Origin: Bacteroidota bacterium
GTDB lineage: Bacteria > Bacteroidota > Bacteroidia > NS11-12g > UBA955
Assembly (NCBI GenBank): GCA_963169345.1
Contig: CAUJCT010000048.1
Location: 1 to 64,000, forward strand
Reading direction: 5' to 3'
Length of the DNA stretch: 64,000 nucleotides
This document shows, in pieces, positions 22,004-57,218 of the stretch (positions are counted from its first letter, which is position 1; each line of letters starts with the position of its first letter). A program made the translations under genes and the position numbers. The notes below the pieces were generated by a model that saw only the letters and a program-made list of their open reading frames with translations, made no database searches and was not told where the DNA came from.

Positions 22004-22010
22004 ATGTATA

Positions 22011-22395
22011 ATTTTTTTAATCCTCTTTACCCTGCTAGGGTGTCGGAAATTAAAATAATTTCCGATCATCCATTTCCATTCAAAAAGTTTTCTTTATCAC
22101 TTATTAAAAATTGTGACGGATTAGATAAAGTGCACTAGGAAAATTGATTTAAATAATGGATATGAAATAAGGAGTAATTTTTTTAATTGTATTCACCCTG
22201 CTAGGGTATCTGGAATTAAAATAATTTCCGACCATCCAATTCTATTCAAAAAGTTTTCTTTATCCCTCATTAAAAATTGTGATGGATTAGATAAAGTGCA
22301 CTAGGAAAATTGATTTAAATAATGGATATGAAATAAGGAGTAATTTTTTTAATTGTATTCACCCTGCTAGGGTATCGGAAATTAAAAAAAATAAA
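22011..22395 (+). repeat. Tandem hairpin-repeat array A (three cores, 166-bp period)
   Basis: Fills most of the gap between atpG and the RAYT gene. Three identical cores ACCCTGCTAGGGT at 22029-22041, 22195-22207 and 22361-22373 are exactly 166 bp apart. Each has a T tract on the left and GGAATTAAAA-type sequence on the right; copy 1 adds a second perfect palindrome, TCGGAAATTA-AAA-TAATTTCCGA (22043-22065). The two complete units carry a box GATTAGATAAAGTGCACTA whose ATAAA starts 90 nt from the core centre (22125 and 22291). The third copy is cut short and runs into the RAYT terminator. No coding potential is visible. Confidence 0.9.
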
Positions 22396-23197: not shown

Positions 23198-23335
23198 AAA
23201 TGATATAAAATAGTTCACTTTATCGAATCTAACCTTATTTTTTGCAAACACCTTCCTTTTTTTTCCTAATTGAAAATGTTCGGAAATAATTTATTTAATT
23301 TGAAACACCCTAGCAGGGTATAAATCGTTAAAAAA
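23198..23335 (-). repeat. Hairpin-repeat unit upstream of RAYT (core E4)
   Basis: Core ACCCTAGCAGGGT at 23307-23319, which is the reverse complement of the array A core. The box read on the minus strand is GATTCGATAAAGTGAACTA (23211-23229), differing from the array A box at two positions. Its ATAAA starts exactly 90 nt from the core centre, as in array A. The unit forms the 5' leader of the RAYT gene on one side, and its A tract touches the start codon of the divergent T9SS gene on the other. Confidence 0.85.
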
Positions 23336-24421
23336 ATGAAAAATCTCCTTACAATATTCCTTTCATGTCTGGTTTCTCAGGCTTTTTCACAGATTATTTT
23401 AGAATCTGCACATGTCATCCCAACCGGAAGACAATACATCATGGCAACTGATAATAAATCGCAAAAATTAGCACCTGCCGGACCTAATCAAAACTGGAAT
23501 TATGCCTCTCTAAACAGCTCAAAGAAAGACACCACAAGAACAGGCATGCCTTTTTGGTACAAAGGTTTTTCTAATTTCCCTCAAAGCAACTACGCCACAA
23601 TCAACAGCACGGATAATAATACGGTGAATTTCTATGAACTTAATGACAATGCTTTTTACAATCATGGTGTATATGCATCAACTGATACTTCACTGAACAT
23701 CGTTAAAATGAAAACCCAAATTTTCCAGTTCCCTGGCCATTTTCAAGATGCTTTTAACGAATCTGATACAATTTTTGGATTATCTCTGGAACTTGGCTTC
23801 GACCCAGATACCGCCGGGCCAATGCCGTTTCTGGATTCTCTGCGTATCTCCACCAGATTTGACAGATTAGTTGAACTAAACGGTTGGGGTAAATTAACTA
23901 CTCCTATTGGAACTTTTGATGCTCTGCGACAAAATACCCGAAATATCATTTCTCAGTTTGTTATGATATACTCTAACGGCAATTGGATTTCAGCACCAAA
24001 ATCTGTTATCGATTACTTCGGTTTATTTATCCCTCAGCCTGATACTGTTCACAATGTTATTTTCATGACCAATAGCGGCGCTTATGGAGCACCCCTGCTG
24101 ACTTACAGCAATAGAAATAAAGATACATCTGCTACGATGAAATGGTTGTTTCAAACTCCTACTAAAAGCTCAGTTGCCAGCTCTAATACTTTCGAATTGA
24201 ATATTTATCCTAATCCATGCAGTGAACATCTTAAACTTGAAATTCCTGGCCTGACTGCACATTATAAAATTGTCAATGTACTGGGACAGGTATTTATAGA
24301 AGGGGATTTCCAGGACAATACAACAGTCGATATTCAGGATTTATCTGAAGGTATTTATTATGTTCAGATTGAATCAGAAAGTGGTACTTTGCTGACCAGG
24401 AAAATAATAGTTACAAATTAA
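23336..24421 (+). CDS. T9SS-exported protein of unknown function
   Basis: 361-aa secreted protein: signal peptide MKNLLTIFLSCLVSQAFSQ, an unassigned beta-rich region (20-280), and a T9SS type A sorting domain from NTFELNIYPNPCSEHLKLEI to the end (GIYYVQIESESG). The N-terminal part gives no family I recognise. The start ATG is joined to the A tract of a hairpin repeat (GTTAAAAAAATG), so its 5' UTR is formed by the repeat, with no clear ribosome site other than the A tract. It ends 2 nt from the convergent L,D-transpeptidase-like gene. Confidence 0.8.
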   Translation: MKNLLTIFLSCLVSQAFSQIILESAHVIPTGRQYIMATDNKSQKLAPAGPNQNWNYASLNSSKKDTTRTGMPFWYKGFSNFPQSNYATINSTDNNTVNFYELNDNAFYNHGVYASTDTSLNIVKMKTQIFQFPGHFQDAFNESDTIFGLSLELGFDPDTAGPMPFLDSLRISTRFDRLVELNGWGKLTTPIGTFDALRQNTRNIISQFVMIYSNGNWISAPKSVIDYFGLFIPQPDTVHNVIFMTNSGAYGAPLLTYSNRNKDTSATMKWLFQTPTKSSVASSNTFELNIYPNPCSEHLKLEIPGLTAHYKIVNVLGQVFIEGDFQDNTTVDIQDLSEGIYYVQIESESGTLLTRKIIVTN

Positions 24422-25446: not shown

Positions 25447-27423
25447 ATGTCTTCAAGTAACACACCTAATGTCACATTGATTTCTGCCATCGAAGAAGAA
25501 ATCATCAAATTGGAGAGAAAACTCAATCCTGAGAATAAAGATTTAATTAAAAACTGGGATAGTCTCGTCGAAAAATATAAAAACGAGGATTACATTTTTA
25601 AAGTCAGAGACAAGGAAGTCAGAATAAAAACACATACTGAAAGCCTCAGTCATACTCCGGTTGCAAAAGTTGCGATGCCTAAATTCAAAGCTTGGGGCGA
25701 CCGTTTAAAATGGCAGTTACAGGAAAATGTTCCAGGAGAGTTTCCTTATACATCCGGTATATATCCATTTAAACGCGAAGGTGAAGACCCAACACGTATG
25801 TTTGCTGGTGAAGGTGGACCGGAACGCACAAACCGAAGATTTCACTATGTGAGTTTAGGCATGCCTGCTAAACGTTTGTCAACTGCATTTGATAGCGTAA
25901 CCCTTTATGGCAATGACCCACACCTGCGTCCTGATATTTATGGAAAAATTGGCAACTCAGGTGTTAGTATTTGTTGCCTTGATGATGCCAAAAAACTATA
26001 CAGTGGCTTTAATCTGGCCGACCCAAAAACATCTGTGTCAATGACCATTAATGGTCCGGCTCCAATGTTACTTGGCTTTTTCATGAACGCAGCCATCGAT
26101 CAGCAATGTGAGTTGTACATCAAAAAGAATGGACTTGAAAAAGAAGTTAAAGCTAAAATCGAAGCCATTTACAAAGAAAAGAAACAGGCTATTCCAGTAT
26201 ACCAGGGCGAATTACCTGAAGGCAATGATGGCTTGGGCTTAATGTTACTGGGCGTTACAGGCGACCAGGTTCTACCGGCAGATATTTACAATGAAATTAA
26301 AGCGTATACATTGTCTCAAGTAAGAGGTACTGTTCAGGCAGATATTTTAAAAGAAGATCAGGCACAAAATACATGTATATTCAGTACTGAATTTGCCCTG
26401 CGATTAATGGGTGATGTACAAGAGTATTTCATCAAAAATAAAGTTAGAAATTTCTACTCTGTTTCAATTAGTGGATATCACATTGCAGAAGCTGGTGCAA
26501 ATCCTATTACACAGTTGGCCTTCACACTGGCAAATGGTTTTACCTTCGTTGAATATTATTTAAGCAGAGGCATGGACATCAACGAATTTGGTCCAAATCT
26601 CTCCTTCTTCTTCAGCAATGGTATCGATCCTGAATATGCAGTTATTGGTCGCGTTTCAAGACGTATCTGGGCCAAAGCGATGAAACTAAAATACGGTGCT
26701 AACGAGCGTTCTCAAATGCTTAAATACCACATCCAAACTAGTGGAAGAAGCTTACATGCACAGGAAATTGATTTTAACGATATTCGTACAACCTTGCAGG
26801 CGCTTTATGCTATTTATGACAATTGCAATAGTTTGCATACCAATGCCTACGATGAAGCTATAACAACTCCTACCGAAGAATCGGTTAGAAGAGCGATGGC
26901 TATACAGCTCATCATCAACCGTGAACTTGGTTTGGCAAAAAATGAAAATCCTATGCAAGGTTCTTTCATAATTGAAGAATTAACCGACCTGGTTGAAGAA
27001 GCTGTTATGGCAGAATTTGACAGAATCACAGAAAGAGGAGGCGTTTTAGGTGCTATGGAAACCATGTATCAGCGTAGTAAAATTCAGGAAGAAAGCTTGT
27101 ATTACGAAACACTTAAACACACAGGTGAATATCCGATAATTGGCGTCAATACTTTCTTAAGCAGCAAAGGTTCTCCAACTATCCTTCCTAAAGAAGTCAT
27201 ACGTGCTACAGAAGAAGAAAAGCAGTATCAAATCAATATGTTGAAACTGCTTCACGACAGGAATGAAGAAAGATGTCAAAAAGAATTGAGACAAGTCCAG
27301 GAGACCGCTATAAAAAACAAAAACGTTTTTGAAGCACTTATGGAAGCTTGCAAAGTGTGCTCACTTGGTCAGATTACTTCAGCATTATTTGAAGTAGGTG
27401 GCCAGTACAGACGTAATATGTAA
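25447..27423 (+). CDS. Stand-alone IcmF-type acyl-CoA mutase (catalytic part only)
   Basis: 658-aa adenosylcobalamin-dependent acyl-CoA mutase. It matches the C-terminal mutase part of the fused isobutyryl-CoA mutase Icm[38 protein letters not shown] and [20 protein letters not shown]. The position of the substrate-carboxylate Arg of methylmalonyl-CoA mutase appears to be Gln (AQNTCIFS instead of VRNTYIFP), pointing to a non-dicarboxylic substrate such as isobutyryl-CoA. No B12-binding DxHxxG motif and no GTPase P-loop are present; fused IcmF is about 1100 aa. Those parts must be elsewhere or lost. It ends [16 protein letters not shown], and this 3' end is duplicated 3.1 kb downstream. Confidence 0.85.
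27382..27423 (+). repeat. 42-bp direct repeat, copy 1 (mutase 3' end)
   Basis: Begins GCATTATTTGAAGTAGG and ends at the mutase TAA. It is identical to 30500-30541 on the same strand. The pair brackets the 986-aa T9SS gene. Confidence 0.95.
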
Positions 27424-30490: not shown

Positions 30491-30541
30491 ATCACCAGCG
30501 CATTATTTGAAGTAGGTGGCCAGTACAGACGTAATATGTAA
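30491..30541 (+). pseudogene. Remnant of a mutase C-terminus, including 42-bp repeat copy 2
   Basis: Encodes [16 protein letters not shown] followed by TAA, exactly the mutase C-terminus. The last 42 bp (30500-30541) are identical to the functional gene. The preceding three codons differ synonymously (ATC ACC AGC against ATT ACT TCA). Upstream of these the similarity ends. The in-frame sequence before it is open back to a TAA at 30431 but shows no mutase homology or start. The synonymous changes suggest the tail came from a diverged mutase homologue and not from simple slippage. Confidence 0.85.
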
Positions 30542-35053: not shown

Positions 35054-35109
35054 AAATCCCGACTGCTAAATATTGGAGGTGCGAAGGTAGTATAAAACTT
35101 TAAAAGTAA

Positions 35110-35244
35110 ATTGTCAAGATACGTTTTGTGAACAGGAATTAATTTTTATTGAAAACAGCAGTTTTTTTTATAAAGGATGAAGAGAGTTTCAGAATTATTT
35201 TAATTTCCAACACCCTGGCAGGGTATTTTAAATTAAAATAATTC
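35110..35244 (-). repeat. Single hairpin-repeat unit with 53-bp extended palindrome (core E5)
   Basis: Core ACCCTGGCAGGGT at 35212-35224. It is enclosed by a perfect 15-bp inverted repeat, GAATTATTTTAATTT (35192-35206) and AAATTAAAATAATTC (35230-35244). A diverged box (minus strand CACAAAACGTATCTTGAC) begins about 89 nt from the core centre. It lies between the divergent mfd and vWA genes, where a terminator would make no sense. Confidence 0.8.
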
Positions 35245-35290
35245 ATCCATTCCCCCGTTTACCTTATTTCAACATTCAGTATTTAACTCT

Positions 35291-39608: not shown

Positions 39609-39640
39609 CAGTAAAAAAAACATTTAGAGATTTAGAAAGA

Positions 39641-39775
39641 AATTTCCAAGTCCTTCTTATCGAATCTTACTTTATTTTTTTCGAAACAACGTGAATTCTT
39701 TTTAAAAGAAAATTTAAGACTTGCATTTTTTTTAACTTCAAACACCCTGGCAGGGTGGAGTAAATTAAAAAAATT
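39641..39775 (-). repeat. Single hairpin-repeat unit (core E6) between E1 and recJ
   Basis: Core CACCCTGGCAGGGTG at 39743-39757 with eight T residues on the left and seven A residues on the right. On the plus strand the box TTATCGAATCTTAC matches the RAYT-leader unit TTATCGAATCTAAC, and its reference base (39660) is exactly 90 nt from the core centre. The unit fills half of the 263-bp gap; a recJ promoter box follows. Confidence 0.85.
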
Positions 39776-39855
39776 CAAAACCCTCCCAATTGGTCAGCCT
39801 ATTCCCTCTCCTGGCCATTCTGTATAATTGTGGAAATTCCTTAGCTTTTTTTTCC

Positions 39856-56470: not shown

Positions 56471-56476
56471 AATATA

Positions 56477-57057
56477 TTTTTTTTAATCTCCTATACACTG
56501 CTAGGGTGGTTGAAATTAAAATAATTATCCCGATCCATCTTTCCTTTAAAAAATATTCTGCATTACCCGATAAAAATTAGTGTTGTTTCAATAAAACGCG
56601 TTTGGCTTTTTGATTTAAAAACACGAATTGGTTAGAGTTTGATTTTTTTACTCTCAGATACACTGCTAGGGTGGTTGAAATTAAAATAATTATCCCGACC
56701 CATCTTTCCTTTAAAAAATATTCTGCATTACCCAATAAAAACTAGTGTTGTTTCAATAAAACGCGCTTGACTTTTTAATTTAAAAACACGAATAGGTTAG
56801 AGTTGGATTTTTTTAATCTCAGATACACTGCTAGGGTGTTTGAAATTAAAATAATTATCCCGGCGCATCTTTCCTTTAAAAAATATTCAGCATAACCCAA
56901 TAAAAATTAGTGTAGTTTCAATAAAACGCGCTTGACTTTTTAATTTAAAAACACGAATTGGTTAGAGTTGGATTTTTTTAATCCGTTTATCCGCCTCAGG
57001 CGGATGTTTGAAATTAAAATAATTATTTACTTCCCTTTCATTTCCGATTTTAAAACG
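56477..57057 (+). repeat. Tandem hairpin-repeat array B (four cores, 165-166-bp period)
   Basis: Occupies most of the 748-bp gap after nuoN. Cores ACACTGCTAGGGT lie at 56495-56507, 56660-56672 and 56825-56837; a fourth, ATCCGCCTCAGGCGGAT, is at 56989-57005 with the same flanks (T7AATC left, GTTTGAAATTAAAATAATT right). Each of the first three units has TTTCAATAAAACGCGCTTG or a near variant with ATAAA starting exactly 90 nt from the core centre (56591, 56756, 56921). Spacers resemble array A only weakly, but phase and boxes agree. No gene is visible. Confidence 0.9.
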
Positions 57058-57060
57058 AAT

Positions 57061-57191
57061 ATTCCAAGTCTGCTTTATTGAATATAAACCTATTTTTTTC
57101 TAAGAAGCATAAAATTTTGTGAATGGAATTACTTGAACCGGAGTTTTTTTAATTTTTGACACCCTAGCAGGGTGTTGATTATTAAAAAAAA
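57061..57191 (-). repeat. Inverted hairpin-repeat unit closing array B (core E11)
   Basis: Core ACACCCTAGCAGGGTGT (7-bp stem) at 57159-57175, enclosed by TTTTTTTAAT and ATTAAAAAAA. Its orientation is opposite to the four cores before it, but it stays in phase, 170 bp from the last. The box CTTTATTGAATATAAACC at 57073-57090 matches the RAYT-leader unit, 89 nt from the core centre. TTCCAAGTC just left of it is shared with the 39.7-kb unit. Confidence 0.85.
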
Positions 57192-57218
57192 TAAATTCCT
57201 CCCCTGAATCCCCAATTC

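Follow-up and report, generated by a model that had tools for sequence, protein, structure and literature searches.

The 5′ leader of a RAYT gene in the 64,000-nt window (the whole stretch of DNA analyzed here, contig C48 of a 3.63-Mb genome in 59 contigs, G000) is itself a copy of a repeat unit that occurs about 78 times in the genome. RAYTs are domesticated "jumping-gene" enzymes. As in a REPtron, this gene is flanked by hairpin repeats that are also spread through the genome, namely the leader unit, array A and the 78 copies overall. The repeats are probably those of a Bacteroidota-type RAYT/REP system in which the RAYT would use both the hairpin and a set of boxes at a fixed distance from it. 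Judging by their anatomy, hairpin and box seem to act jointly. Repeats of this kind have been noted for Bacteroidota RAYTs but little described. Bacteroidota RAYTs are set apart by "atypical" repeats, the lack of GTAG and unconserved GTAG-binding residues. With its hairpin, constant length, phased boxes and two natural hairpin variants that have one box in common, the unit provides a concrete, mutable substrate on which the replacement of the GTAG guide can be tested, and the same substrate could show whether RAYTs use double-stranded besides single-stranded contacts.

The core of the repeat, CCCTGCTAGGGT, was found with at most one mismatch at 73 sites across the 3.63 Mb; the reversed pattern, used as a control, gave 2. 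It is a mini-hairpin, CACCCT-GCT-AGGGTG, with a 3-nt loop inside an outer A/T palindrome; the consensus 5′ of it is GAATTATTTTAATCtAAAACACCC, from which the GT[AG]G tetranucleotide that canonical GTAG REPs carry at the 5′ foot of the hairpin is absent. After 75 core-bearing copies had been oriented and scanned for the box, a trained PWM placed its ATAAA at +90 from the core centre in 66 of the 71 scoring units and at +89 in 4. Since the PWM had been trained on the copies it scored, the spacing was retested on units outside the window with the consensus of the original prediction, TTCRATAAAN5CTTGR, which had been fixed from the window copies. The box was at +90 in 55 of these 65 units and at +89 in 3, where shuffles give 0.15 at +90, and 32 of the 37 non-window arrays have a unit with the box at +90. 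The spacing noted in the window copies is thus conserved elsewhere in the genome. Within the window, +90 holds as originally listed for the leader, both array A units, the three array B units and the 39.7-kb unit (where the motif reads ATAAG), as does +89 for the 57.1-kb unit. The 35.2-kb unit had been wrongly assigned a box at 89 nt: its ATAAA lies at +69, and TTCACAAAACGTATCTTG occupies the +90 register.

The genome-wide profile scan for core plus box that had been proposed as a check was run with a unit profile built from 30 dereplicated copies. It returned 78 matches above 70 bits; the next score, after a gap, is 58 bits, from which point reverse-strand readings of the palindrome begin. 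Match length is exactly 140 nt in 67 of the 78 and 139 nt in 5. The RAYT leader, which had been called a repeat unit, is confirmed as one (92.7 bits, E = 5e-11, exactly 140 nt), although the profile includes the window copies and the leader too, so that their scores are partly by construction. A further motif, GGATAWG, stands at +123 in 28 of the 32 units that carry it, and the linker between a box and the following core differs in length among copies (periods 163–190). Taken together, these observations indicate that length is constrained along the entire unit and not between core and box in particular. The earlier idea of a two-part functional unit therefore holds in part: the fixed spacing fits a unit of several parts, and a second RAYT/repeat pair described below reinforces it, but the entire unit is length-locked rather than core and box alone. 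The sequence between core and box has indeed drifted further, as had been noted, with a pairwise identity of 0.88 in the core, 0.42 at +27..+40, 0.49 at +61..+84 and 0.66 in the box.

Some variation touches the core itself. The palindrome TCCGCCTGAGGCGGA replaces the left half of the core at C31:15101, C42:10349 and C20:7595, and both halves at window 56990–57004. The right half still lies 90 nt from the box at C31 and 89 nt from it at C42, so this half seems to be the reference point for the spacing. In several arrays TTTTTTTAA stands left of the core in the outermost unit on the 5′ side, where later units have GAATTATTTTAAT; this difference is possibly the trace of an insertion site. The window copies are collected in Table 1.

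Table 1. The RAYT gene and the repeat-unit features of the window (positions in the 64,000-nt window).
Feature	Position	Strand	Basis
RAYT gene, 210 aa	22545..23177	-	PF01797 match, motifs, predicted fold
RAYT 5′ leader repeat unit, oriented as the gene	23201..23340	-	profile R1 match, 140 nt
Leader-unit core mini-hairpin, centre 23313, RAYT ATG 136 nt away	23306..23320	-	sequence
Leader-unit box ATTCGATAAAGTGAACTATTTTATAT, ATAAA 23223 = +90	23203..23228	-	weak box-PWM match (12.0)
Array A unit 1, core 22028-22042, box ATAAA 22125	22008..22147	+	core, PWM, profile
Array A unit 2, core 22194-22208, box ATAAA 22291	22174..22313	+	core, PWM, profile
Array A terminal core (22362), box absent, 3′ of RAYT gene	22360..22374	+	PWM 1.7 at +90
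35.2-kb unit, TTCACAAAACGTATCTTG at +90, TTCAATAAA 21 nt (one step) earlier	35106..35245	-	consensus test, profile
39.7-kb unit, box ATAAG 39660	39638..39777	-	consensus test, profile
Array B unit 1, box ATAAA 56591	56474..56613	+	consensus test, profile
Array B unit 2, box ATAAA 56756	56639..56778	+	consensus test, profile
Array B unit 3, box ATAAA 56921	56804..56943	+	consensus test, profile
Alternative palindrome TCCGCCTCAGGCGGA replacing the core, at the junction of array B with the opposed 57.1-kb unit	56990..57004	.	sequence
57.1-kb unit, 139 nt, box +89	57056..57194	-	PWM, profile

The protein encoded by the RAYT gene has the Y1 HuH fold, with an HuH motif (NHIH, residue 51) and a catalytic-tyrosine Y..NP motif (YIHYNP, residue 147). 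It matches PF01797 (E = 9.7e-7), its AlphaFold model has a pLDDT of 92.5, and the best PDB fold is 4er8 (E = 2.3e-7), the structure of TnpA_REP, a REP-associated tyrosine transposase, with a REP hairpin. N51, H52, H54, Y147, N151 and P152 are invariant in 53 relatives. With the NCBIfam equivalog model NF047646 (REP_Tyr_transpos) the protein scores 63.7 bits, under the cut-off of 80; two related RAYTs reach 47–52 bits, so this model may not cover the subclass. To judge from its motifs (NHIH, YIHYNP with Y in place of Q/N, and an SS motif at S167-S168) and its relatives, the window RAYT appears to belong near subclass 2.6 (group 5). As PMC6006769 describes this subclass, its genes have flanking "atypical secondary structures" that lack GT[AG]G, and the GTAG-binding residues are not conserved. 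An IS200/IS605 insertion sequence was considered and rejected, as the tyrosine motif is YIHYNP and not Y...Q and no repeated copy of the RAYT is present in the genome. Two Y1 transposase-like genes (C50:16596-16940 and C19:8757-9098) were likewise set aside as partners of the repeats; their Y..Q..HH motif is the published signature of subclass 1.2.

A second RAYT of the same class, ~35% identical to the window RAYT, lies at C34:26169-26846. Two copies of another hairpin, ATTCAACCTNNNAGGTTGAAT, precede it, and the genome has 84 sites of this hairpin where the control has none. Units of this second family share their box, TTTCAATAAA, with the first; it stands at +54 in 17 of 18 of them, a TTTCATT motif occurs 21 nt ahead of it, and the leader of the C34 gene is built in the same way. 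The family-2 spacers are well conserved, which makes fixed spacing weaker evidence there, and taken by itself this family shows no significant periodicity (z = 2.76). G008, the genome of another species in the genus, has a related RAYT and a hairpin of its own in 17 copies; its TTCA boxes stand at +53/+54 in the RAYT leader and two copies, and two further copies have them at +30 to +32. From hairpin centre to ATG, the distance is 129 nt for the C34 RAYT and 141 nt for that of G008. Among 70 genomes of the taxonomic family, the family-2 core pattern exceeds chance only in G000 (70 hits) and G008 (11), with 0–1 in the others, and both genomes carry close RAYTs; the family-1 core reaches copy number only in its own genome.

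Used as sole query against the genome contigs, the window RAYT protein gave no match; an alignment of three RAYT sequences retrieved 507 relatives, the best 80 of which are nearly all from Bacteroidota. A palindrome lies within 260 nt upstream in 47 of 70 readable loci, a count that has no control, and 31 of 70 have a palindrome common to the upstream and downstream flanks. Related loci L150–L229 carry double palindromes of ~33 nt, each arm a mini-palindrome with a 3-nt loop (ACCT-N3-AGGT); such mini-palindromic arms make up 68 of 123, against 3% of shuffled arms. The cores of the window genome look like one half of these palindromes. A box common to all Bacteroidota RAYTs was rejected, since the linkers in the leaders of distant genes differ and are without the TTCA box. 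The box is accordingly particular to this lineage and does not characterise the RAYT subclass in general.

Several known systems resemble this one in part. Subclass 2.6 (Bertels group 5) RAYTs, to which the window gene is likened by its motifs, share NHxH, YIHxNP and the SS motif, and have non-GT[AG]G repeats flanking the gene with copies elsewhere; where PMC6006769 describes them, the structures are "atypical" and without a unit anatomy, whereas here the unit is length-locked with a fixed, 21-nt-phased box. Group 2/3 TnpA_REP REPtrons of E. coli, Stenotrophomonas and Marinomonas (PMC8266576, PMC2817692) also join a Y1 HuH enzyme to its own adjoining hairpin repeats, and the Stenotrophomonas REP is likewise a perfect palindrome with a 3-nt loop (PMC8266576, PMC2817692). 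Those REPs measure 20–40 nt, in contrast to the ~140–157-nt unit, head-to-tail arrays, second conserved box and missing GTAG guide seen here. TIRYT genes (PMC3733652) are RAYT-like, with non-GTAG, self-complementary flanking repeats that can form genomic families, but their TIRs are double palindromes; ours consist of one mini-hairpin, equivalent to half of a ~33-nt palindrome of the kind described above, plus a distant box. REPINs and BIMEs (PMC3116915) are, like these repeats, RAYT-dependent and mostly intergenic populations. They pair two opposed REPs, whereas the arrays here are direct repeats with one hairpin per unit and no inverted or alternating pairs.

The body of the unit is periodic. 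Its column autocorrelation peaks at a lag of 21 (z = 4.7; in 99.9% of permutations the maximum over all lags is below 4.25), and the repeated motif TTCANAAA has its C at +46, +67 and +88. The box of the original prediction is the third and last of these three motifs, TTTCAATAAAG..CTTGG at +90, and the 35.2-kb copy carries the TTCAATAAA form one step earlier, in register with the ladder. The unit is best read as having three parts: a 3-nt-loop mini-hairpin in an A/T palindrome, a body of constant length with TTCANAAA at a 21-nt step, and the last motif at +90. The RAYT gene starts within the body of the leader unit and has a core behind it, so that gene and repeats have sequence in common. Like E. 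coli TnpA_REP, the RAYT would recognise the CCCTGCTAGGG hairpin on single-stranded DNA, and the phased boxes may be a second, distance-dependent recognition or positioning element that replaces the missing GTAG guide. A copy in its leader would let the RAYT bind or act on its own 5′ region. We infer that recognition may be followed by cleavage and mobility of the units. The arrays grow mainly by local tandem duplication. A more specific version, in which the RAYT measures a fixed distance without GTAG on a TTCANAAA ladder phased at two helical turns, and in which this second recognition module was kept while hairpin specificity diverged between the two RAYT/repeat pairs of this genome, can be put forward only tentatively.

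The main rival explanation is that the units are a host regulatory or nucleoid element, in which boxes spaced by 21 bp, or two helical turns, bind a host protein on double-stranded DNA and the RAYT merely carries a copy. We consider this rather unlikely, even though the direct 21-nt periodicity on one helical face speaks for it, as does the occurrence of one box with two different hairpins. The absence of core-box pairing in RNA or single-stranded DNA also fits a host protein. RNAalifold found no compensatory pairs and returned only the core and the outer A/T arm as stems, and in a permutation test over 11 region pairs no pairing survived multiple testing (best p = 0.02), so a conserved RNA or single-stranded DNA stem linking core and box was rejected. 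By crude ORF calls, all arrays are intergenic, and 15 of the 32 with both neighbours called sit between divergent genes, a placement that would suit a regulatory array. Classical REPs favour tandem and convergent gaps (PMC3733652). We read the location as favouring neither a RAYT substrate nor a host-protein site. Against the host element, the two hairpin families are found in species that possess close RAYTs, and genus members lacking such RAYTs have neither family; each RAYT leader has its own hairpin type, and spacing fixed to 1 nt is stricter than phasing on double-stranded DNA usually needs.

That the spacing is fixed simply because the copies are young, duplicated too recently for indels to accumulate, is improbable. 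Identity among the units of one array is 85%, and the period is common to them, as recent duplication would predict. Across arrays, however, identity is 64%, and the least conserved stretches are only 36–43% identical with their lengths still constant, while the box-to-next-core linker does vary.

The suggestion in the original prediction that the units are internally deleted RAYT elements, MITE-like derivatives of a transposon, did not stand up and is very improbable. In its favour, one end is common to gene and repeats, the leader being a unit, and the terminal core of array A lies 3′ of the RAYT gene, which places cores on both sides of it. The unit tail, however, resembles neither the RAYT gene nor its 3′ flank more closely than it resembles random window segments, a fraction of 0.65 (consensus tail) or 0.21 (array A tail) of the random controls aligning at least as well, and the reported likeness between the array A ending and the RAYT start, ATGAAATAAGGA and ATGAATCATGGA, fails since the spacing differs between them. 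Array A also runs opposite to the gene, and the leader is the most diverged unit, with a box identity to the others of 0.54 against an average of 0.66 among them. The leader is hence not the source of recent copies.

A transcribed RNA element (a terminator, leader RNA or small RNA) is the least probable reading; the core is a hairpin and a unit lies in the same orientation in the 5′ leader of three RAYTs, but an Rfam search gave no match, the box and body are without covariation, and for an intrinsic terminator the T tract before the core and the A tract after it are the wrong way round.

Many contig ends adjoin family-1 units (C2, C15, C32, C34, C43, C50, C51 and C57), some with common flanking sequence, which indicates that the units adjoin multi-copy regions that broke the assembly. 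Separately, an exact 42-bp repeat occurs at window 27382–27423 and 30500–30541; one copy forms the 3′ end of a called gene, and the other lies shortly after the point where the next gene stops.
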